Shown here: positions 1-26,034 of the stretch, piece after piece
Numbering within the stretch: position 1 is the stretch's first letter
Layout of the letters: every line of letters starts with the position of its first letter
NCBI GenBank assembly: GCA_003569365.1
Contig: BGOS01000029.1
Coordinates: forward strand, 1 to 64,000
DNA length: 64,000 nt
Reading direction: 5' to 3'
DNA from: Anaerolineaceae bacterium
Lineage (GTDB): Bacteria; Chloroflexota; Anaerolineae; Anaerolineales; UBA11657
The notes under the pieces: model-generated
Told to the model about the DNA's origin: nothing
Seen by the model: only the letters and a program-made list of their open reading frames with translations
The model's database searches: none
Made by a program: the position numbers and the translations under genes

Positions 1-226
1 AACGCCGTGTTTTATCCGGCCGGCATTGTGCCACTAGCGGTGGCCGCGCTGGCAGTGGCTGAACCCGATGCTGCATCTGGTGGAATGTTTTCGCGCGCCG
101 CTGTATCTGGCGCAGCTGCCGGGCCCGGACACGCTGCTGGCTGCGGCTGCGGCGGCGCTGGGCATGCTGCTGCTGGGCTGGCTGGTGTTTACAAGCCAGG
201 CCGACCAGCTAACGTACCGCGTGTAA
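1..226 (+). pseudogene. ABC-2 polysaccharide export permease, C-terminal end, apparently frameshifted
   Basis: This is the end of the membrane subunit of a Wzm/Wzt-type O-antigen or teichoic-acid exporter. Frame 1 reads VFYPAGIVPL and then becomes meaningless. From about position 38 the reading continues in frame 2 as RWPRWQWLNPMLHLVECFR..., ends in a hydrophobic helix and QADQLTYRV, and stops with TAA at 224-226. The pattern of a proline-rich periplasmic loop, NPM.HLVE..R and a last helix is typical of the family's C-terminus. The two frames join cleanly if one base near 35-38 is removed, so there is a one-base insertion or an assembly error there. The ATPase gene follows 46 bases later, the usual permease-ATPase order. 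Only the last 70 or so residues lie in the window. Confidence 0.7.
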
Positions 227-272: not shown

Positions 273-1010
273 ATGAGCGACCTTGCCATTGAACTGCAGG
301 ATGTGGCGGTGTGCTACCGCGTGCCGCTGCACCCCACGCTTTCGCTGAAGCAGTATGCCGTGCAGCTGTTGCAGCGCAAGGCGGCCGCGCGCGATTGCTG
401 GGCGCTGCAAGGGGTGAGCCTGCAGGTGGCGCGCGGCACAGCGCTGGGCGTGGTGGGCGCAAATGGCGCCGGCAAGAGCACGCTGCTGCGCGTGCTGGCG
501 CGCGTGCTGCGGCCGGTGTCCGGGCGCGTGCGCGTGCGCGGCTCGGTGGCGCCCATTTTGGAGCTGGGCGCCGGCTTTGATATGGAGCTGACCGGGCGCG
601 AGAACATCATGCTGGGCGGTGCGATGCTCGGGCAATCCCGCCAGTGCATGGAGCGCAAGCTGCCGGCGATAGCGGAGTTTGCCGGGCTGAACGGTTTTAT
701 GGACGCGCCGCTGCGCGTGTATTCCACCGGCATGGTGGCGCGCCTTGGCTTTGCGGTGGCCACGGATGTGAGCGCGGATGTGCTGCTGGTGGATGAGGCG
801 CTGGCGGTGGGCGACATTGCGTTTCAGCAGCAGTGCCTGCAGCGCCTGCGCGAGTTTGTGGCGCGCGGCACCACGCTGGTGATCGTGTCCCACAGCCCGG
901 CGCTGCTGGCTACCGTGTGTACGCACGCGCTCTGGCTGGCGGGCGGGCGCGTGCAGCAGTGCGGCGCTGCGCAGCCCGTGCTGGCGGCCTACCAGCAAGC
1001 CATGCTGTGA
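273..1010 (+). CDS. Polysaccharide ABC exporter ATP-binding protein (Wzt/TagH type)
   Basis: A 245-residue ABC ATPase that would power export of a lipid-linked polysaccharide through the permease encoded just upstream. The Walker A loop GANGAGKST is at residues 62-70. The signature region reads YSTGM.ARLGFAVAT at about 150-164, the variant found in Wzt/TagH-type proteins. Walker B VLLVDEALAVGD is at 170-181, and the switch histidine lies in IVSHS. The protein stops soon after the nucleotide-binding domain, so it lacks the C-terminal carbohydrate-binding domain of long Wzt proteins. Such short forms usually export without recognising a terminal cap. The stop codon overlaps the GTG of the next gene (GTGA), which implies translational coupling. 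Confidence 0.9.
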   Translation: MSDLAIELQDVAVCYRVPLHPTLSLKQYAVQLLQRKAAARDCWALQGVSLQVARGTALGVVGANGAGKSTLLRVLARVLRPVSGRVRVRGSVAPILELGAGFDMELTGRENIMLGGAMLGQSRQCMERKLPAIAEFAGLNGFMDAPLRVYSTGMVARLGFAVATDVSADVLLVDEALAVGDIAFQQQCLQRLREFVARGTTLVIVSHSPALLATVCTHALWLAGGRVQQCGAAQPVLAAYQQAML

Positions 1011-2215
1011 TTGATCCGCAGCCGCTCGCAATTGACTTTTACTGCGCCGACGCGCACATCGCTTACGATGAGCGCCGGCTGGACGAGCATGGCGTGGGCG
1101 GCGGCATCACCACGCGCATCCGCCTGGCGCATGCGCTGGCAGCGCGCGGCCACCGCGTGCAGGCCTGGGTGAACTGCGTGCAGCCCGGCTGGCAGGGCGG
1201 CGTGCACTACCGCCATTTTTCTGAAGCAAGCGCGCTGCGGGCGGATGTGGTGTTATATGGGAGCAGCGGGCAGCCCTACAGCCTGCACAGCGCCAATGCG
1301 CTGCCGGTGCAGGCGCGGCTGCGCGGCTTGCTGGCTTTTGGGCAGCCCATGCCGGCCGGCTGCCAGCCGGCTAACTACGATTACATTTACACCGCCAGCA
1401 ACTTTATGCGCAGCTGCGTGACCCAAATGTGGGGCGCTGCTGCGCGCCAGATTTTTTCCTGCCCGCGCGGTGTTGTGCCGCAGTTTTACGCAGCGCCTGT
1501 GCCCGAGCGCGATCCGTTCCGCCTGGCGTACAGCGGCCACCCGGAAAAAGGACTGGCGGCAGCGCTGGCAGTGCTGCAGCTGCTGCGCGCGGTTGATGCG
1601 CGTTTTCACTTGCAAGTGTTTGGCGGGCATGCATTGTGGGGCCAGCCGGAAGCGCCGCAGCCGGCGCAGGCGGGGGTGCACTATTGCGGCGTGCTGGGGC
1701 AGCGGGCGCTGGCGCGGGCGCTGCAAGGCTGCGGTTTTGCGCTGGCACTGCAAACGCGCCAGGAGCCGTTTGGCATGGCGGTGCTGGAGGCGCAGCGCGC
1801 CGGCTGCGTTGTGATCGGCAGTGCGGTGGGCGCCTTCCCGGAAATTGTGAGCGCTGGCGTGGACGGCTTCTTGTTGCCGGGTGCGCCGGCAGCAGCTGTG
1901 GCTGCCGCAGCCGAAATAATTTTGGAGTTATTGCAGCAACCGCAGCGCTTGCAGGCAGTGCGCACGGCAGCGCAATGCGCTGCGCTGCCGTGGGACATGG
2001 TGGCGGCGGCATACGCGCAGCATTGGGCGTGGGCGCTGCGCGGTGCAATACCGCCGGCTGGCGGGCCGTTGTGTGCGCAATGCAGCGCGCCGCTGCAGGA
2101 ATTTGCCAGCGGGCTGCACTGTGTGCGATGCGGCGCTTACACGCGCGGCGGCGCAGCGCCGGCAGCTGCCACGCGCAGCGCGCTGCAGCCGGCAATGCAG
2201 GCGGTGTCCGCGTGA
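1007..2215 (+). CDS. GT-B glycosyltransferase (GT4-like) with C-terminal zinc-ribbon motif
   Basis: A 402-residue glycosyltransferase. I place the start at GTG 1007 because it overlaps the ATPase stop (GTGA) and is followed directly by conserved-looking sequence; the open frame extends further upstream but overlaps the ATPase gene. The N-terminal half begins with a HGVGGGITTRIRLAHALAARGH stretch, the usual acceptor-domain start. The C-terminal half has SGHPEKGLAAALAVLQLL and then RQEPFGMAVLEAQRAGCVV, the donor-sugar E-x7-E type motif of GT4 enzymes. Residues about 356-375 hold two CxxC pairs (CAQC and CVRC, 12 residues apart), which could bind zinc and are unusual for the family. The next gene starts inside this gene's stop codon. 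Sugar specificity cannot be read from sequence. Confidence 0.8.
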   Translation: MIDPQPLAIDFYCADAHIAYDERRLDEHGVGGGITTRIRLAHALAARGHRVQAWVNCVQPGWQGGVHYRHFSEASALRADVVLYGSSGQPYSLHSANALPVQARLRGLLAFGQPMPAGCQPANYDYIYTASNFMRSCVTQMWGAAARQIFSCPRGVVPQFYAAPVPERDPFRLAYSGHPEKGLAAALAVLQLLRAVDARFHLQVFGGHALWGQPEAPQPAQAGVHYCGVLGQRALARALQGCGFALALQTRQEPFGMAVLEAQRAGCVVIGSAVGAFPEIVSAGVDGFLLPGAPAAAVAAAAEIILELLQQPQRLQAVRTAAQCAALPWDMVAAAYAQHWAWALRGAIPPAGGPLCAQCSAPLQEFASGLHCVRCGAYTRGGAAPAAATRSALQPAMQAVSA

Positions 2216-5200
2216 AGTTTGTCATCTGCGGGTACTACGGCTTTGCGAACGCCGGCGACGAGGCGATTTTGCAAGCGCTGCTCAAGCAGCTGCGGTTGGC
2301 GCAGCCGGCGGCGGATTGCACTGTGCTCAGCGGTGACCCGGCCGCAACGCAGGCAGCGCACGCAGTGGCTGCGCTGCACTTTACGGACCTTGATGCAATT
2401 ACAACAGCGCTGGCCAACTGTGACTGGGCCGTGCTTGGCGGCGGCGGGGTGCTGCACGATGCCGGCGGCTTTGACCCGGCCAGCATGCTCACGCCTGACC
2501 ACAGCGGCCTGGCATATTACGGCGGGTTTGCCGTGCTGGCGCAGCTGTTGCGCAAACCGCTGGCGCTGTGGAATGTGGGCGTCGGCCCATTGCACACACC
2601 CGCGGCGCGCCAGTTTACACAGGCGATTGTGGAGCTGGCTGCTTTTGCAAGTGTGCGCGATGCAGAGTCGTTGGAGGCACTGCGCGCGCTTGATGTGCCG
2701 GTGGCGCGCGTGCAAAGCGCTGCAGATGGTGCCTGGCTGCTGCCGCCGGTGCCGGCTGCTGCCACGGGCGCAGTGCGGCCGGTGCTGGGCGTGGCGCTGC
2801 GCGAGTGGCCGGCTGCGGGCGCGTGGGAGCCGGCGGTGATTGCGGCACTCGGCGCCTTTCAGCGCGAGACCGGTGGCACGCTGCAATTTGTGGCCATGCA
2901 GCAGCTGGCGGATGGCGCGCTTGATGATGCTGCGCTGGCAGAGCGCATTGGGGCGCAGCTGCCGCACCCGGAGCGCGTGCTGCGCACCGGCTGGACCGGC
3001 AGCCCGGCGCAAGCTGCGGCTGCGCTGGCCGGCTGCGATGCCGTGCTGGCCATGCGCTATCACGCGGCATTGTTTGCTGCGCAAGCTGGCGTGCCGGTGG
3101 TGGCGCTGGCTTACGATCCCAAGGTGCGCCAGCTGCTGCAGGCGCTGGGGCAGCCGGAGCAGGTGCTGGCACTGGCGGGATTGCAGGCGCCGGCATTGGC
3201 AGCTGCGCTGCGCACTACGCTGGCGCAGCGGCCGGCACTGGCAGCGCAGCTGGCTGCGGCAGCGCGCCGGCTTGGGCAGCACGCGCAACACTGTGCAATT
3301 GCATTTGACGCGCAGCTGCGCGTGGCACCCGATACGCTGCCGGCAGTGCAGCCAGGCCCGGCTGCGCGCGCACTGCTGCAACAGCACACGCTCGATCAGC
3401 TGCATGGGCTGCTGCAGCGCAATGCACAGCTGGCGGAAACGCGGCAGATAGTGCAGGCGCGCGATGGCTTGGTGCGCAGTCTGCAGCAAGAGATGCACGC
3501 TGCCGTGGCCGCGCGTGATGCGCAGCTGGCGGAAAGCTTGCAGGCGGTGCAGGCGCGCGATGGCTTGGTGCGCAGTCTGCAGCAAGAGATGCACGCTAAG
3601 GTTGCCGTGCGCGATGCACAGCTGGCGGAAAGCCGGCTGATGCTGCAGGCGCGCGACACGTTGGTGGGCAGTCTGCAGCAAGAGATGCAGGCCGCGGTTG
3701 CCGTGCGCGAAACGCAGCTGGCACAGCTGCGCACCACAAATACTGAACAGACCGACGCTCTTGCGCAAGCGGCAGCCGCCGAGGTGCGTGCTGCGCGGCA
3801 GCTGGCGGGCGTGCAAACAGAGCTGGCAGTCATTCATGGCTCGCGCTACTGGCAGATGCTCTCGCGTTATTGGCGCATGCGCGGCTGGCTGCGCCGGGTG
3901 CTGCCGCATGCATTGCGCCGGCGGGTGCTGGCAGTGCTGCGCGTGCCGGCCCGCCCGCAGCGCGCTGCGGAGGGCGCTGCGCTGCAGCGCATGCTGCCGC
4001 GAGTGCTGCCAGCCACTTACGATGTGCTGTGCCTGCCGGTGATTGACTGGGAGTTTCGGGTGCAGCGCCCGCAGCAATTGTTGCGCCAGTTTGTGGCGGG
4101 TGGCCAGCGCGTGTTTTATGCACACACCACTTTTTGCAGCGGGCAGCCGGTGCGCCTGAGCCAGCTGGAGCCGGGCGTTTTGGGTGTGCAGCTGCCGGGG
4201 CCGCCGGGCGTCAGCATCTACGGCCACATCTTTGGCGCGGCGCAGCAGGCGCAATGCCTGCGTGCGCTGCAGGCGCTGCGCGACAGCGAGCAAATTGCCA
4301 GCGCTGTGCTGCTGGTGCAGCATCCGGCGTGGACCAGCGTTGCAATTGCAGCGGCCCAAAAGTTTGGCTGGCAGCTGGTTTACGACTGCATGGATGAGCA
4401 TGCGGGCTTTGGCAACAATACTGCCGCGGTGCTGCAGCAGGAACCGCAACTGCTGGCTGCCTGCCAGCTGGCGGTGGCTAGCTCCCGCCCGCTGCTGGCA
4501 AAGTGCGCGGCGCGCGCCGCGCAGGCATTGCTGCTGCCCAACGCCAGCGACGACGCCCATTTTTCCGTGGCGCCGGCAGGCAACGCGCTGCCCGGAATGC
4601 GCGGACCCATCATTGGTTACATTGGTGCGATTGCAGAATGGTTTGACGCGCAGCTGGTGCGCACGGTGGCTTTGGCGCGCCCGCAATGGCAGTTTGTGCT
4701 GGTGGGCGCCGTCAGCTGCGCCCGCGCGCAGTCGCTGTTGCAATTGCCAAACATTCAGCTCACGGGCGAGCAGCCCTATCATGCGCTGCCGGCGTACTTG
4801 CACCGCTTTGATGTGGCTTGCATTCCATTTGTGCGCAACGCGCTTACGGCGGCGACTGATCCGGTGAAGCTGTACGAGTACTGCAGCGCCGGCAAACCCG
4901 TGGTGGCAGCGCCGCTGCCGGAGCTGCCGGCTGGCGTGTACTACAGCGCCGAGACTGCCGAGCAATTTTGTGAGCAGGTGGAGTGCGCGCTGGCAGAACC
5001 GGCGGCACAAGCGGCAGTGCGCCGGGAATTTGCGGCGCGTAACACGTGGGCGCTGCGGGCGACAGTACTGCATAACAGCCTGGTGGAATTGTTTGCACGC
5101 GTGCGCATTGTGGTGATCAGTTTTGACAATGCGGCGCTGCTGGCGGAATGCCTGGACAGCGTGCGCGACTGCACCACCCATCCCAACTACGAGGTGCTGG

Positions 5201-5856
5201 TGGTGGACAACCGCAGCAGCAGTGCGACTGCGGCATTGCTGGCTGCGCGCTCGGCAGCGGATGCGCGCGTGCGTGCATTGCGCAACCTGCACAACGCCGG
5301 CTTTGCGGAGGCGGCCAATCTGGGGCTGAATGCGCCCGGCGATTATGAGTATGCGGTGCTGCTCAACGACGACACGCTGGTAACGCGCGGCTGGCTGCAG
5401 CGTTTGCTGCGCCATCTGGCGGACGGGCGCACCGGGCTGGTGGGGCCGGTCACCAACTTTGCGGGCAACGAGGCACGCATTGGCGTGCCCTACGCCGGCA
5501 CAGCGGGGGTGGCGCAATTTGCTGCGCAGCGCGCCCGTGATTTTGCCGGCACCGCATTTGAGATTCCGATGCTGGCCATGTACTGCGTGGCGTTCCGGCG
5601 GGCGCTGCTGCAAAGCGTGGGTGCGCTGGATGAGCAGTTTGAAGTGGGTATGTTTGAGGATGACGACTTTGCACTGCGCGTGCGGGCAGCGGGCTTGCGC
5701 GTGCTGTGCGCCGAGGATGTGTTTGTGCATCACGTGGGGCGCGCTTCGTTTGGGCAGCTGCCGGCTCCGGATTACGAGCGCGTGTTCTCCGCCAATCAGC
5801 AGCGCTTCGAGCGCAAGTGGGGGCGCAAGTGGGAGCCGCATTGCGCGCGCGTGTGA
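2212..5856 (+). CDS. Giant fusion: polysaccharide pyruvyltransferase + coiled coil + GT-B + GT2 glycosyltransferase
   Basis: A 1214-residue protein starting at GTG 2212, overlapping the previous stop codon. Residues 1-390 form a CsaB-like polysaccharide pyruvyltransferase domain: the N-terminus is [18 protein letters not shown], with a glycine-rich [14 protein letters not shown] segment and [16 protein letters not shown] near the end. Residues 407-502 are three near-identical 32-residue charged repeats, predicted coiled coil. Residues about 602-955 form a GT-B domain with the donor motif [16 protein letters not shown]. Residues 964-1214 form a GT2 domain with NDDTL as the metal-binding motif and [14 protein letters not shown] as the catalytic-base region. 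The same glycan may therefore be extended and pyruvylated by one polypeptide. The next gene starts on the last base of the stop codon. No frameshift is visible, so I read it as one protein. Confidence 0.85.
3430..3717 (+). repeat. Three 96-bp tandem repeats inside the fusion gene (coiled-coil linker)
   Basis: Units lie at 3430-3525, 3526-3621 and 3622-3717, each coding 32 residues that begin LAE and contain QARD.LV.SLQQEM. Units 1 and 2 differ at few positions; unit 3 is more diverged. The period keeps the reading frame, so copy number can change without breaking the protein. Confidence 0.95.
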
Positions 5857-7019
5857 TGGCTGCGCCAAGCTTGCCGGCGGGCAGCGCAGTGCATGCCGTG
5901 GAAAGCCTGCAAGCCGCAGCGCCGGCGCCGTCCGCACCGGGGCGCATCGTGGTTGTCATTCCTGCGCACAACGAAGCTGCGGTGCTGCCGTTCACGCTGC
6001 CGCCGCTGCTGGCGCAGCTGCAGCGTGGTGATGAACTGTGGGTGATTGATGACGGGTCGGTGGATGGGACGGCGCGCGTGGCGCGGGCGGCCGGGGCGCG
6101 GGTGGCGCGCCGCGCGCGGTCGGCGGGCAGCAAGGGGCAGGCGCTGCGCTGGTGGGCGGCAAATGCGGGCGCGCACGTGGACGCAACGTGGGGCGTGCTG
6201 GTGCTGGATGCGGACTCGCGGCCGGCGGTGGAATGTGTGGCGCAGCTGCGCGCTGCGCTGCAAGCCGGCATTGTTGCCGGGCAGGCGCTGGTGCAACCGG
6301 TGGACTACGCGGGCGGCGTGCTGCGCGAACTGGGTGCGTGCTCCGAGTTGATGGAGCAGCTGCTGGATGATGCACGGCGCACAGCGCGCGGCTGGCCGGT
6401 GCGCCTGCGCGGCACGGGCATGCTGCTGCGCGGCGATATTTTTGCGGCGGCAGTGCAGCGCTTGTGTACGCGCATTGAGGATGTGGAGCTGACGCTATTT
6501 GTGGCAGCGGCCGGCCATGGCATCACTGCATTGCATGCAGCGCAAGTGCTGGACCCAAAGCCGGCCAGCAGCCGCGACGCAGCCCGCCAGCGCGCGCGCT
6601 GGCTGCGCGGGCAGGTGAGTGTGCTGCGCATGCATTGGCGCGTTGTGCTGGCGGTGGCGGCACGCGGGCCGGGCGGCTGGTCTTTGCTGGGCAGCGTGCT
6701 GGCCAAGCCGCGCAGTGTGCTGGTGGCTGGCAAGCTGCTGGCTGCGCTGCTGCTGGCGGCCATGGCCGTTGACGCATACTCGCTGGCAACCGCTGTGCCG
6801 GCTGTGCTGCTTTCGATGTGGATTTTGCCTGACGCAATTTATCTGGCGCGCGGGCTGCGCCTGCCGCAAACGCGCGGGCTGGCGCTGCGCCTGGTGTTTG
6901 CGCCACTGTACGCTTTGTGGTGGCTGCCCATTGCCGTGCTTGCCGCCCGGCGGGAAGGCCGCTGGCGCTCCCCGCGCCGCGCCGCAACTGACACAACCAC
7001 TGCTCCGCAGCGGTGGTAG
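5856..7019 (+). CDS. Membrane-anchored GT2 family glycosyltransferase
   Basis: A 387-residue processive-type GT2 transferase. I chose ATG 5856, which overlaps the upstream stop codon by one base; the open frame extends further upstream but inside the previous gene. The GT-A fold starts near residue 30 with [15 protein letters not shown], then [19 protein letters not shown], the DxD motif in VLDADSRP, the base-bearing EDVELT and [10 protein letters not shown], a variant of the (Q/R)xxRW motif of membrane GT2 enzymes. Three or four hydrophobic helices follow at the C-terminus. It probably adds a sugar to a lipid-linked or exported glycan at the inner face of the membrane. The stop codon overlaps the start of the next gene. 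Confidence 0.85.
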
Positions 7020-8899
7020 CCGAAGACCCAGCCGCATCCGGCGCTGACTGGCGCCCGGCGCTGCCCGCAGCGCTGCTGCTTTCTGCGCTGCTGTTTTGCG
7101 TTTATATGGCTGGCTATGGCGGCCGCTACAACCGCGATGACGAACATGTATTTGTAAGTGCAGCTCAGGGCTGGGCGCGTTGGGGTGCGGCCGACCTGCC
7201 GCAGGTGTGGGGCAACTCGCGCTTGCAGGCGCTGCGCCTGCAGCCTTATTACTCGGTGGTGGAGCCCGGCTATTGGTGGCTGGGCGCGCAACTGCTGCGC
7301 GTGGCTGATGCACTGCGCCTCGGCAGCGTGCAGGTTCTCATGCTCGTCAATCCATTGCTGACGGCGCTGACGGCCGGCGTGCTGCTGTTGCTGCTGCGCG
7401 CGCAGGGGTATGCGCTGCCGGCAGCCGCACTGACGGCGCTGGGCTATGGCAGCGCCACGTTTGCGTGGGTCTACACGCGCACATATTTTCGTGAGCCACT
7501 GGCGGCACTGCTGCTGACGGTGGCTGCATTTTGCATTGTGCTGCTAGGCGATCAGCGTCTGCGCCCGGCAGCGGTGCGCGGGGCAGCGGGCCTGGCACTG
7601 GCCGCTGTGCTGGCGGCGATTGCCGTGAAGCTGGCATGTTTTGCAGCTGTGCCCGCGCTGCTGTGGCTGGCATTACCCGCGCTGCAACGGGTGCGAGTGC
7701 GCAGCGGGTTGGGTTGGACTGCGCTGCTGTTGGTTGGCAGTCTGGCATTGCTGCTGGCGGCGGGCAGCAGCCCCGCCACCGTGCGTCTTTCATTGCCCTA
7801 CTTTGGATTTGTGCTGCGGGCGCTGGCTTCCGCCTCGCCCGCATACGTGGCGGAAGCTGTGATCGCCACACTCATCAGCCCCGCGCGCAGCATATTTTAT
7901 TACGCGCCGTTTTTGCTGCTGAGCTTTTACGCGCTGCGCCATGCGCGCACGCGCTTGTTTGGGGCGGCCTGGCTGCTGGCTGGTTTGCTGCTGGGATTGC
8001 AAGCTGTGGCGTATGGGGCGGATTGGTGGGCACCCACTGGCTGGGGGTTGCGGACATTACTGCCGGCACTGCCTTTGCTTGTAGCCGGGTGTGCGCCGGC
8101 AATAGAGCACGCGCTGCAAGCGGGCCGCCGCAAAAATGTGTTTGCACTGCTGGGCGCTGGAGTTGCGGTGCAGTTGCTGGGCGTGGCCTACGCCAACCAA
8201 AGCGTTGTAGCGCTGGCGGGTTGGGCCATGCCGCGCACAGCTGCGCTGTGGAACCCGCGTGATGCAGAAGTAGTTGCGCAAGTACGGCAGCTTTGGCAGG
8301 GGCAGGCGTGGGAACTGGCTGCGGTTCAAGTGGGTGCGCCATGGCTGGCGGGTGTCTGGCTGCTGCCAATTGTTGGCATACTGATTGCGGGTCGGCGTTT
8401 AGTGGTTAGCCCAGTGGCATCTTTGCGTTTGCGGCGTGCACTTGGCGTGATGTTGGCTTGCCTGACGCTCGCAGTTTTATTCGTAGCACTACTGCGCGCT
8501 GACCCGGGGGTGGGTGGCGACCATCCGGAGTTTGCAGCAGCCGCCAGTTTCGTGGAGAGCGAGGCCGGCGCGCGCGATGTGGTGCTGGTTCAGTTTTATG
8601 GGCAGCCGCTGTGGCAGTACTTCAGCAATTCATTTTATGCGCCTGTACGCTGGTATGCCCTGCCACTACGAGCCAACGCCAGCGCAGCTGTTGCGCCGGT
8701 TGGCACGCGCGCACTGCTGGCGGGTCTGCCGCTGAGGCACGGCCGGGTGTGGCTGGTGAGTGCCGACTCAGCAGAGGCGATGGATCCGCGCGCGGAATAC
8801 AAGATGCTCGCAGCCCGGCACATACTGCGCGGCAGTTGGCGCTTCGCAGCCGCTAATGGTGGTGGCGCACAGGTATTTCTGTTCGAACTGATAAAGTAA
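7013..8899 (+). CDS. Polytopic membrane protein, probable GT-C (GT39/ArnT-like) glycosyltransferase
   Basis: A 628-residue protein starting at GTG 7013, overlapping the previous stop codon. About ten or more hydrophobic segments are followed by a soluble C-terminal part from roughly residue 500. An early loop contains [20 protein letters not shown], placed where GT-C enzymes carry the acidic DE/DD catalytic motif after the first helix, and a later loop holds [15 protein letters not shown] enzymes transfer sugars from polyprenyl-phosphate donors on the outer face of the membrane, which fits its place beside export and GT2 genes. Family assignment rests on topology and the acidic loop only, so an uncharacterised membrane protein of a related fold is possible. 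Confidence 0.6.
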
Positions 8900-21966: not shown

Positions 21967-24900
21967 GTGGGGAGCGCCCGCACTTTGCCGGCAGCTGAAT
22001 CCGGGCATGCGGGCAGGGAGTGGCGCGGTGAGGCGCTGCCAATTGTGTTGCTGCTGCTGGCCCCGCTGCTGTGGCTGTATCCCGTCACATTCGGCGGCCG
22101 CACAGCCCTGCCCGTGGACAACCTGGCGCAGTACGCACCGTGGGATGCCAGCGCCGCGCAGTTTGGGTTTGATGCCGAGCCCCACAATGCACTGATCTCT
22201 GACTTGGTGCTGGAGAACTACGCGTGGCAGCGATTTGTGCGCGCGTCTGTGCGCGCCGGCGAGCTGCCGCTGTGGAACCCGTACCAGTTTGCTGGCGTGC
22301 CGTTTCTGGCGACCGGGCAGGCCTCGGTGCTCTACCCGCCGTCAATTTTGTTTCATGTGCTGCCGCTGGCAAACGCTTATGGCTGGTACCTGCTGTTTCA
22401 TTTTGCGTTGGCGGGGCTGCTGGCGTATGCACTTGTGCGTGGCCTGGGACTAAGCTCCACCAGCGCGCTGCTGGCTGGCATCGCGTACCAAGGTGCGCTG
22501 CCGCTCACGGCCAGCGCCGTCTTCCCGATGATCGTAAGTGGCGCAGCATGGCTGCCGTTGCTGCTGCTGGCAGTTTTGCGCGTTGGTACGCCGGGCGTTG
22601 CGCCGGCGCGCTGGTTGTGCGCCGGTGCACTGGCAATTGGCATGCAACTACTGGCCGGACATCCGGAGGTGGCTGCGTATTCGCTGGTTGTGGCGGCTTT
22701 GCTGGGCGCGTGGCAGCTGCTGGCGGCTGCACCGCAGCACTTCGCTGATGTGCGCGGGCAGCTTTTGCGCGCTGCAACACTTTCAGCAATGGTCGCGCTT
22801 GGCTTTGGAATTGGCGCAGTGCAGTTTTTGCCGCAGCTGGAGGCTGTGCGCAGCAGTTTTCGCACGCAGGCGCCTGCGCTGGAGACTGTGCGCGGCTGGG
22901 CGCTGCCGCTGCGGCATGTGATTGCTTTTTTTGCGCCAAATATTTTTGGCAATCCATCTCTGCATGGCTACTGGGATTTATTCTCCGGCACTTGGGTTGC
23001 AGGCAAGCCGGTTGACTGGGGTATCAAAAATTTTGTCGAAGGCGCTGTCTATGTTGGCGGGCTGCCACTACTGCTTGCGTTTGCCGCCGTAGGCCGCCAG
23101 GCAATGCCTGGCACGCGCGCTGTTGGCGCTGAAATACGGGCGCAAATATTTGCGCCACGCATTTTCTTTGCGCTGCTCGCGCTGCTGTGCCTCGCATTTG
23201 CGTTTGGGTCGCCCCTGTATGCGCTGGTGTATTACCTGCCGGGGCTTAGCCAGTTGCATACGCCTTTTCGCTGGATGCTGCCGTTCGCGCTCTGTGTGGC
23301 TGTGCTGGCCGCTTATGGTTTGGAGGATCAGATTGCAGACAGCCGCACCGGACGCCGTGGCGCGCTCGCAGCGCTTTGCTTTGGAATTGGTTCTGCATTA
23401 ATTTTGGCAGTGCTGCTGATGCGCGCATTCTTTGCGCAGTTGGCACCGATTTTTGATGGGTTGCTGCAGCGCTTGGCGCTGGCGGGCAGTGCCTTCGCGG
23501 ACGGGCGGATGTTCTTTTCCTTCACCGCGCGTTGGGTGCTGCAAGCGGCGGTTGTGCTGGCGGTATCGGGTTTGGCTCTGTGGCTGTTGCGCGCAGCGCA
23601 TGCAACGCGGGGCACGCTGCGCACGGCCTGTTTGCTGGCGGTGCCGGTGTTCGTGGCTGTAGATCTGGCGCTCGCAATTAGCGGCTTCCTGCCGGCTAAC
23701 TCTCCTGAAATGCTGCAGTTTGAGCCGCCGGTGATTACATTTCTGCGCAGCGACCGCAGCGCGTGGCGCTTCACCACTTACGATCCGGAGGGCAGCAAGC
23801 CGCTGAATGCAAACAGTGGCTGGCTTTTTGACTTGCAGGATGTGCGCGGCTACGACTCAATCATTCCATTGCAATATGTGAACTACATGCAGCAGCTTGA
23901 GCCGCAATCTGAGCTGCAATACAACCGGATTGCGCCGGTTCACAGCGCAGCCGGGTTGGGCTCGCCGCTGCTGGACTTGCTCAATGTCAAGTACGTGCTC
24001 GCGCGCAGTCCGATTGACTCGCCCGGATACACGCTTGTGCACAGTGGCGACCTGCGTGTGTACCGCAATGAGCATGCACTGCCGCGCGCTTTTTTGCTGG
24101 CAACCGGCTGCGCATTCGCTGCGCCAGATCTGTCTGAATCGCTGGCGACTCAAGACTTGCGCCACTTTTTGATGTTGGAGCCTGCATCGATGTTGGCCAC
24201 TGCACCGGCCCTGCCGCTGGCTAGTTGCGTTCCGCAAGCAGCCGAGATTACAAACTACAGAAACTCCGAGATCCAAATTGCGGTTGAGGTTTCCGCGCCT
24301 GCATACCTGATGCTGGCAGATTCATTTGCACCGGGCTGGCACGCCTATGTGAAGGGTGGGGCAGGAACGGCGCCCGTAGAGGTACCGGTGCTGCGAGCTG
24401 ATGGCAATTTTCGGGCAGTGCTGCTGCAGCCGGGCACACAATCTGTGCGCTTCAAGTACAGCCCGGACGCGGTGAAGCTCGGGGGTTTGCTTTCCTTTAC
24501 CGCGGGCATGTTGTGGCTGCTGATTCTTGCCGGCTCTTGGTGGACGCAGCGTCAGTCAGTGGTGGCAGCATCGGGCGCTGCGCGCGTCGCGCGCAACAGC
24601 CTTGCGCCAATGGTCTTCAATTTGCTGAACCGCGCAATTGATTTTGTGTTTGCGGCTTACTACTTGCGCGTGCTGGGCCCGGGTGCGGCCGGGGATTACA
24701 CCACTGCCATCGTGCTTGTGGGCTGGTATGAAATCTGGACCAACTTCGGCTTGAACGCGTGGCTAACGCGGGCCGCTGCGCAAGATTTGCAGGGCGCCAA
24801 TCGCTATTTCTCAAACAGCAATATTCTGCGCATCGCTCTGGCCGGCTTGAGCATGCCCGTATTTCTGGGTGCGGTCTTTTGGTATCAGGCTGGCACCGGT

Positions 24901-26034
24901 GCGCTGGGCGCCGGAACTGTGCTGGCCGTTGCGCTGCTGGCGGTGGGCATGTTTCTTTCATCGCTTTCGAGCGGGCTAACGGCGTTGTTCTACGCCTACG
25001 AGCGGGCCGAAGTGCCGGCGGCAGTGTCTGTGGGCACAACGCTGCTCAAGGTTTTGTGTGGCACCGCAGCGCTCGTGCTGGGCTACGGCTTTGTGGGCCT
25101 GGCTGGCGTCAGCATTATTGTGAACACATTTACGCTCGCGATCTTGGCGGCTTACGTGCGCCTGAACTTTTTTGTGCCACGCACCGAATACACTCCGGCG
25201 CTGCAGCGCACAATGGTTGTTGAGTCATTTCCATTAATGCTCAACCATCTGCTTGCCACGCTGTTCTTCAAGATTGATGTGCCATTGCTGCGCACACTGC
25301 GCGGCGATGCCGAGGTGGGGCGCTACGGCACAGCCTACAAATTCCTGGATGCATTCAACGTCATTCCGTCGTTTTTCACCTTTGCGCTTTTTCCGCTGCT
25401 CAGCCGGCAGGCACAACATGACCGGCCTGCAATGCTGCGCACTTACCACTTTGCCATCAAGCTGCTGACGCTGGTAGCGCTGCCAGTGGCGGCCGCAGCA
25501 TGGTGGCTGGCTGCGCCGCTGGTGGGGCTGCTGGGCGGGCAGGCGTACCTGCCGGACGGCGCCTTTGCGCTGCAGCTGATGGCGCTCTCCATGCCATTTG
25601 GCTGGATCAACAGCGTCACCAATTACCTGCTGGTGGCGGCGGGCCAGCAGCGCGCGCTCACACGCTGCTTTGCGGTAGCAGTGCTCTTCAATTTGGGCGC
25701 CAACCTGCTGTTCATTCCGCGCTATGGGTTTGTGGCGGCAGCTGTGATCACCATCTTCTCCGAGCTGGTGGAGGGCGCGGCTTTTCAATATTTTGTTTAT
25801 CGCCACATTGCGCCGACGCCGTGGCTGCGCCTGTTTGGGCGGGTGGGACTGGCAGCCGCTGCCATGCTGGCAGCGCTGTGGATTGGGGCACAGCTTCACG
25901 TTGCGCTGGGCCTGCTGCTCGCTGCGCTTGTTTACCTTGGCGCGCTGCTAGCGCTGCGGGTATTTGATGACTGGGAACGGTCGCAGCTGCGGGCTGTGCT
26001 GCCGCCGGCTTTGCGCGATCTTGTGAAAGTATAA
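21967..26034 (+). CDS. Fusion of YfhO-like membrane glycosyltransferase and Wzx-type polysaccharide flippase
   Basis: 1355 residues from GTG 21967. Residues 1-860 are a YfhO-family GT-C protein: LPVDNLAQYAPWDA in the first external loop, LPLWNPYQFAGVPFLATGQ, about a dozen helices and a soluble beta-rich part (APAYLMLADSFAPGWHAYV). Residues about 875-1355 form a MATE/Wzx-like flippase of about 12 to 14 helices beginning APMVFNLLNRAIDFVFAAYY. YfhO proteins glycosylate lipoteichoic-acid-type or similar surface molecules from polyprenyl-phosphate sugars; flippases move lipid-linked glycans. No stop or frame change separates the parts, so flipping and outer-face glycosylation may be done by one protein. 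Confidence 0.85.
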   Translation: MGSARTLPAAESGHAGREWRGEALPIVLLLLAPLLWLYPVTFGGRTALPVDNLAQYAPWDASAAQFGFDAEPHNALISDLVLENYAWQRFVRASVRAGELPLWNPYQFAGVPFLATGQASVLYPPSILFHVLPLANAYGWYLLFHFALAGLLAYALVRGLGLSSTSALLAGIAYQGALPLTASAVFPMIVSGAAWLPLLLLAVLRVGTPGVAPARWLCAGALAIGMQLLAGHPEVAAYSLVVAALLGAWQLLAAAPQHFADVRGQLLRAATLSAMVALGFGIGAVQFLPQLEAVRSSFRTQAPALETVRGWALPLRHVIAFFAPNIFGNPSLHGYWDLFSGTWVAGKPVDWGIKNFVEGAVYVGGLPLLLAFAAVGRQAMPGTRAVGAEIRAQIFAPRIFFALLALLCLAFAFGSPLYALVYYLPGLSQLHTPFRWMLPFALCVAVLAAYGLEDQIADSRTGRRGALAALCFGIGSALILAVLLMRAFFAQLAPIFDGLLQRLALAGSAFADGRMFFSFTARWVLQAAVVLAVSGLALWLLRAAHATRGTLRTACLLAVPVFVAVDLALAISGFLPANSPEMLQFEPPVITFLRSDRSAWRFTTYDPEGSKPLNANSGWLFDLQDVRGYDSIIPLQYVNYMQQLEPQSELQYNRIAPVHSAAGLGSPLLDLLNVKYVLARSPIDSPGYTLVHSGDLRVYRNEHALPRAFLLATGCAFAAPDLSESLATQDLRHFLMLEPASMLATAPALPLASCVPQAAEITNYRNSEIQIAVEVSAPAYLMLADSFAPGWHAYVKGGAGTAPVEVPVLRADGNFRAVLLQPGTQSVRFKYSPDAVKLGGLLSFTAGMLWLLILAGSWWTQRQSVVAASGAARVARNSLAPMVFNLLNRAIDFVFAAYYLRVLGPGAAGDYTTAIVLVGWYEIWTNFGLNAWLTRAAAQDLQGANRYFSNSNILRIALAGLSMPVFLGAVFWYQAGTGALGAGTVLAVALLAVGMFLSSLSSGLTALFYAYERAEVPAAVSVGTTLLKVLCGTAALVLGYGFVGLAGVSIIVNTFTLAILAAYVRLNFFVPRTEYTPALQRTMVVESFPLMLNHLLATLFFKIDVPLLRTLRGDAEVGRYGTAYKFLDAFNVIPSFFTFALFPLLSRQAQHDRPAMLRTYHFAIKLLTLVALPVAAAAWWLAAPLVGLLGGQAYLPDGAFALQLMALSMPFGWINSVTNYLLVAAGQQRALTRCFAVAVLFNLGANLLFIPRYGFVAAAVITIFSELVEGAAFQYFVYRHIAPTPWLRLFGRVGLAAAAMLAALWIGAQLHVALGLLLAALVYLGALLALRVFDDWERSQLRAVLPPALRDLVKV

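Follow-up and report, generated by a model that had tools for sequence, protein, structure and literature searches.

A CsaB-type pyruvyltransferase, a predicted coiled coil and two glycosyltransferases joined in one protein of an Anaerolineaceae exporter operon

In the surface polysaccharide proteins WbdD, WbbB, ORF7-O4 and ORF6-O7 the cap enzyme is localized at the distal end of a coiled coil (PMC11231755), and the function of the coil as a ruler is established for the O9 serogroup and for O12 (PMC11231755; PMC5082667). WbbB and ORF6-O7 additionally carry the polymerase glycosyltransferases (GTs) at the C-terminus, with the terminator at the far end of the coil (PMC11231755). The few coil-ruler systems studied for surface polysaccharide length all have methyl, methyl-phosphate or Kdo caps. 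Pyruvate caps have been described in Klebsiella pneumoniae O1, where pyruvylation by WbbZ stopped polymerisation in vitro and shortened the products (PMC10629545); in cells these caps do not set length, the O1 exporter having no reader (PMC11231755), and in O1/O2a, exported without a cap-reading domain, length depends on exporter coupling (PMC11231755, PMC10629545). The CsaB pyruvyltransferase of Paenibacillus alvei is known to pyruvylate a lipid-linked disaccharide mimic (PMC10435577). Pyruvate termination with length control has already been proposed as a candidate for other bacteria, with B. vietnamiensis G4 and P. protegens among them, without biochemical proof, and the idea is not new. 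A characterised protein with the architecture CsaB-coil-GT1-GT2 was not found in the literature searched, which covered few subscription journals. Such a protein is encoded in the window analysed here, a stretch of 64,000 nucleotides from an Anaerolineaceae bacterium (contig BGOS01000029.1).

Architecture of the fusion protein and its operon

The fusion gene (Table 1) is one stop-free plus-strand frame of 1214 residues with a GTG start and a TGA stop. A few bases are shared with the gene on either side, the upstream stop lying in GTGA at 2212-2215 and the downstream start in TGATG at 5854-5858, so that the fusion and the flanking genes are probably translated together. Codon-position G+C is even over the entire frame except for a short final block. 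The absence of a stop and the Pfam and NCBIfam domains confirm the description in an earlier note of this DNA, made from the letters alone, as a single protein with a pyruvyltransferase, a coil and two glycosyltransferases. In an AlphaFold prediction of residues 1-1200 (30 sequences) the head and the GTs were modelled with confidence (pLDDT mostly >90), and the coil was followed by shorter helices up to residue 575, disorder at 575-596 and then the GTs. A long minus-strand open reading frame at 2137-5937 was interpreted as a shadow of the GC-rich coding sequence.

Table 1. Coordinates of the features in the window.
Feature	Position	Strand	Basis
Probable exporter permease remnant (C-terminus)	1..226	+	Frame 2 by eye, LNPMLHLVECFRAPLYLAQ... 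TYRV stop
Wzt-type ABC ATPase, 245 aa, without C-terminal cap-reading domain	273..1010	+	ABC_tran 45-177
GT4-type glycosyltransferase with C-terminal Cys4 (zinc-ribbon-like) tail	1007..2215	+	Pfam Glyco_trans_1_4
CsaB - coiled coil - GT1 - GT2 protein, 1214 aa	2212..5856	+	Frame, Pfam, NCBIfam, AlphaFold; order matched in L007, L009, L010
CsaB-type pyruvyltransferase head, residues 1-370	2212..3321	+	TIGR03609, invariant residues, own model pLDDT 92.8
Single long helix / predicted coiled coil, residues 394-543	3391..3840	+	AlphaFold helix, 3.53-residue periodicity
Three 96-bp (32-residue) repeat units in coil, residues 403-498	3418..3705	+	Tandem Repeats Finder, unit comparison
Trp- and Arg-rich helical segment, residues 544-575	3841..3936	+	Charge, amphipathic moment
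GT1 domain (GT-B fold), residues 600-960	4009..5091	+	Pfam, fold match, motif
GT2 domain, residues 963-1207	5098..5832	+	Pfam Glycos_transf_2 3.4e-19, motifs
GT2-type glycosyltransferase, 387 aa	5856..7019	+	Pfam
Hydrophobic protein, 628 aa, operon end	7013..8899	+	No Pfam or NCBIfam match

The head matches Pfam PS_pyruv_trans at residues 13-303 (4.2e-30) and, at residues 3-316, the NCBIfam CsaB model TIGR03609 with 220.6 bits, above the cut-off of 213.1. R149, H284 and K304, which correspond to the PEP-site residues R148, H308 and K328 of P. alvei CsaB, are invariant across 15 relatives including Paenibacillus CsaB, and the counterpart of R207 is less certain. The catalytic residues of the head are thus intact, and it may be active as a pyruvyltransferase. 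A sequence search of the PDB with the CsaB profile returned no pyruvyltransferase, and a fold search with the CsaB model matched GT-B-like proteins (best 4xsu, Z 24.6, rmsd 3.6, 323 aligned); Pvg1p (5ax7) and WbbZ (6x1l) were absent among the fold matches listed, which does not exclude either. Plasmid relatives of the head were not found at 1e-15.

Both modules after the coil are putative chain-extending polymerase modules. The first, with a Pfam GT1 domain at residues 799-927, resembles sucrose-phosphate synthase 6kih (Z 32.8, rmsd 3.2, 353 aligned) and keeps the motif TDPVKxYEY; as a TuaH teichuronic acid protein it scored 76.6 bits with NCBIfam NF047676, below the cut-off of 550. The second has its Pfam GT2 match at residues 966-1133 and keeps the motifs NDD and EDDD.

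Between the head and the GTs, AlphaFold predicted one unbroken helix at low confidence (pLDDT about 50-66), as a single chain that cannot show oligomers; its 150 helical residues would measure about 22 nm. Along this helix large hydrophobic residues recur every 3.53 residues, with a power that none of 1000 shuffles attained and that was matched in 0.05% of repeat-preserving shuffles. A strict-heptad COILS-style score was not above shuffles for the window coil, possibly because each 32-residue unit may be read as 7+7+7+11. The coiled coil foreseen in the earlier note was therefore called on the helix and the periodicity test and not on the COILS-style score, which alone is not significant. The three-unit repeat it had pointed out within the coil was recovered by Tandem Repeats Finder (3.2 copies of 96 bp, score 417, at 3417-3722), units 1-3 having 23-26 of 32 residues in common and a fourth register not matching. 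Differences between units are spread across all codon positions (dN 0.15-0.18, dS 0.26-0.27; NG86), which points neither to recent duplication nor to strong constraint on the sequence of the units. Of the windows examined, this one alone contained the 96-bp unit; the same-genus genomes G001 and G002 (68-75% complete) gave only weak GT matches and are uninformative on repeat number. The segment that follows the coil has the top positive charge of any 30-residue stretch in the protein (+10 at 552 and 555) and is, over residues 544-585, basic and amphipathic, with a moment that reaches the 99.6th percentile for this protein; it is a possible membrane-contact site.

Upstream, the probable exporter permease remnant is cut by the contig start and is not in one clean frame; its frame-1 translation has no Pfam match, and in L062 and L068 an ABC2_membrane permease stands at the corresponding place. 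The closest curated relative of the Wzt-type ATPase is galactan_ABC_ATP (202.8 bits, below the cut-off of 400), and a search for Wzt_C anywhere in the window genome found none. The GT4-type protein is 38-39% identical to that encoded directly upstream of the L062 CsaB fusion and to the nearest listed upstream gene of L009, and the gene order of L062 (permease, ATPase, GT4, CsaB fusion) is that of the window. Elsewhere in the window, at 21967-26034 (+), a 1355-residue frame that matches YfhO weakly and, further on at 875-1147, Polysacc_synt (flippase-type) is a possible fusion or joined frame.

Relatives with the same and with other heads

The search for the same domain order, proposed in the earlier note as a check, revealed full-length fusions of equal order in three other genomes of a named-genome scan: a Nevskia soli isolate (L007, 1240 aa), a member of the Bryobacterales (L010, 1214 aa) and one of the Terriglobia (L009, 1618 aa, with the GT1 domain doubled). 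In more remote fusions with a CsaB head the GTs are arranged differently, as CsaB-GT2-GT1 (L063, L064, L066), CsaB-GT1-GT2-GT1 (L062), CsaB-GT4-GT4 (L068) and CsaB-GT4-GT2-GT2 (L067). A GT was held in the same stop-to-stop frame in 20 of the 25 CsaB frames examined, with a coil between the head and the first GT in about half of those 20 (window included). Among 297 sampled genomes of the phylum of L009, 10 of 11 close CsaB matches are in frames of at least 894 aa, lengths that run from stop to stop with start codons checked for some only. The CsaB family is rare in the phylum of the window, where 32 of 400 genomes match, two of them above the cut-off. The assertion that these activities are usually separate enzymes thus stands for CsaB in general but not for the subfamily of the fusion, where joining is common. 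At L064:3790-7407 (-) an SLH-domain protein is encoded right after the CsaB fusion.

Coil length varies among relatives by tens of residues. Measured from the head's conserved K to a Ser-x-x-Trp-like motif after the coil, the distance is 240 residues in the window, 196 in L009, 183 in L010, 157 in L007 and 145-175 in L064, L066 and L068. The window coil is the longest of those measured, by roughly two units over the middle of the others, a surplus from which we infer two duplications. Four coils in the set have tandem repeats, those of the window, L064 (42 bp), L065 (126 bp; not between head and GTs) and L100 (138 bp), all multiples of three.

Other heads occupy the place of CsaB before GT1-GT2: a methyltransferase in L012, L023, L029 and L100, a radical SAM domain plus a methyltransferase in L026, and glycosyltransferases in L008 and L017 (GT2) and L044 (GT4). 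A sulfotransferase head precedes coil-GT1-GT2 at L011:1348-4515 (+), possibly a sulfate-capped version. In all of these other-headed members a coil is predicted between the head and GT1. At L023:5484-11537 (+) the methyltransferase is almost 950 residues from GT1, mostly predicted coil, far longer than in other members.

The L100 protein (L100:6405-9878 (+), WP_253045733.1), known only as a database record, is encoded on a plasmid of Paraburkholderia fungorum and resembles the window protein in having a head, a repeat-bearing coil, GT1, GT2 and an ABC-exporter operon, with 36% identity over residues 604-1214. It differs in its methyltransferase head, its 46-residue coil repeats (138 bp, 3.1 copies, 97% matches) and its neighbours, a permease and a Wzt with the cap-reading domain Wzt_C, an arrangement that is as would be expected of a methyl-terminated, cap-gated system.

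Head swapping suggests, as the strongest indirect support, that the CsaB head could be a terminator; since glycosyltransferases also occupy the head position, it is also compatible with the coil as a general linker. These natural swaps are ready-made parts for asking whether cap and ruler are separable modules. A broader proposal, somewhat doubtful at present, is that of a widespread family of ruler-polymerases with one coil-GT1-GT2 chassis, exchangeable pyruvyl, methyl, sulfo or glycosyl heads, exporters that either have no reader or have one suited to the cap (Wzt_C for methyl, SLH for pyruvate), and a coil length evolving by in-frame tandem duplication.

Chain ending, chain length and export

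The features observed, namely one gene with its order of domains, a predicted coil, catalytic residues that are intact, an operon and relatives with swapped heads, can be brought together in one reading, to which we assign a probability of about 0.48: a single protein that builds and stops the chains of an ABC-exporter-dependent surface polysaccharide in the manner of WbbB, with a pyruvyl cap and a rod that biases length. Enzyme activities, acceptor, termination and length control would be as follows. GT1 and GT2, near the membrane, would extend a lipid-linked chain, as their folds, motifs and exporter operon suggest; the CsaB head, about 22 nm off on the coiled-coil rod, would cap those chains that are long enough to reach it with a pyruvate ketal at their outer end; the ketal would stop extension, judging from the layout of WbbB and WbdD and from the head-swapped relatives; and rod length would bias chain length.

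Three intact active sites in one frame and a 150-residue predicted helix between head and GTs argue for this builder-and-stopper function, as do a CsaB fusion that follows an SLH-tailed Wzt (L068) and another with a Wzt_C-bearing Wzt (L093). Against it, the window Wzt has no cap-reading domain and the genome no Wzt_C, the coil lies between other modules in L062, L065 and L067, and the disaccharide mimic accepted by P. alvei CsaB raises the possibility that the head acts elsewhere than at long-chain ends. The idea that the coil sets the distance between capping and extending sites, as a ruler of product length, was sustained in part: a cap enzyme at the end of a rod far from two extending enzymes, an ABC-exporter operon, the published terminator-ruler-polymerase layout and head swapping speak for it, whereas the reader-less exporter and the known pyruvate caps, which do not set length, speak against it. 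The ruler idea appears reasonable, though unproven. The window system gives no support for a cap check at export, as the exporter ATPase has no reader and the genome has neither Wzt_C nor SLH domains.

The main rival, which we consider unlikely, is that the head caps some chain ends and only diversifies the surface, like WbbZ in O1, length being set by the uptake rate of the reader-less exporter and the coil being a spacer. The short Wzt, related to a galactan-type exporter ATPase, and the O1/O2a precedent (PMC11231755, PMC10629545) favour it, and the frames that join GT1-GT2 to a permease in L079 and L087 fit direct coupling of extension to export; WbbZ, however, is separate and has no coil, whereas here a long rod ties the head to the polymerase and is kept in relatives (145-240 residues). 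Less probable still is that the coil serves as a generic oligomerising scaffold keeping successive enzymes together, with CsaB pyruvylating each repeat unit or an early lipid-linked intermediate, as its action on the lipid-linked mimic in P. alvei would allow. In this protein class coils do link modules of many kinds, GT-coil-GT in L008 and L044 among them, and their position varies, but all four genomes with CsaB-GT1-GT2 have the coil between head and GTs, and methyl- and pyruvyltransferases occupy one and the same place. Anchoring of SLH-domain (S-layer) proteins by a pyruvylated polymer, as happens in Bacillota, is suggested by CsaB family membership and by SLH proteins common in several fusion-bearing genomes (adjoining the fusion in L064, near it in G103), and is largely refuted for the window genome, since no SLH domain occurs in it (G000, 95.5% complete, draft), nor in two less complete congeners or G100. 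A merging of separate genes through a frame error, which the earlier note had named as refuting evidence, or through an assembly error is hardly credible, the frame having no stop and steady codon-position G+C and the order recurring in three independent assemblies.

Wzt is mostly short among the CsaB fusions with a Wzt nearby, the exceptions being L093 (Wzt_C) and L068 (two SLH domains). At L068:2795-3994 (+), directly upstream of the CsaB-coil-GT4-GT4 gene, lies the gene of a Wzt-type ABC ATPase with two SLH domains at its end (PF00395, 5.4e-10). As SLH domains bind pyruvylated wall glycans in Bacillota (PMC6081394, PMC6030368), this tail is a possible cytoplasmic reader of the pyruvate cap and suggests a concrete candidate for such a function. 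In a search for SLH-tailed Wzt among 297 genomes of the phylum of G110, the matches listed beyond G110 itself stop before or just into the SLH part. GT1-GT2 and an ABC-2 permease share a single open frame at L079:1841-4960 (-) and again at L087:637-3636 (+); polymerase and export channel may be one protein.

Comparison with described systems

CsaB of P. alvei (PMC10435577) is related to the head by enzyme family and conserved PEP-site residues; there it stands alone and serves a wall polymer anchoring SLH proteins, and here it is fused. WbbZ and WbmX of K. pneumoniae O1/O2c (PMC10629545) act, as is proposed for the head, on the non-reducing end of an O antigen exported by an ABC system, to which WbbZ adds pyruvate and WbmX probably does, but they are stand-alone enzymes without a coil, not needed for chain length, and WbbZ belongs to another pyruvyltransferase clade than CsaB.

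WbdD of Escherichia coli O9a (PMC5082667, PMC3482155) has its cap enzyme at the end of a coiled-coil ruler of ~20 nm, close to the predicted 22 nm of the window helix; it differs in its methyl-phosphate cap and separate polymerase WbdA, and it is a known trimer, while the window protein is known as a single-chain model only. ORF6 of K. pneumoniae O7 (PMC11231755) also joins a terminator head, a coil and C-terminal GT modules in one protein, there with a methyltransferase-kinase head with an extra domain and two GT2 modules.

WbbB of K. pneumoniae O12 (PMC11231755), compared by layout alone, adds a Kdo cap that its exporter reads and consists of modules of CAZy families GT99, GT102 and GT103, whereas the window protein has a pyruvyltransferase head and GTs of GT1 and GT2 type, and its exporter ATPase has no cap-reading domain; for this last reason it is described as working like WbbB and is not counted fully among the cap-gated export systems. 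If the proposed function is correct, the coil ruler would be known with a further kind of cap, pyruvate, in a protein laid out like WbbB, which has its chain-ending module at the N-terminus, then a coiled coil and, at the C-terminus, two GT modules, in an ABC-exporter pathway.
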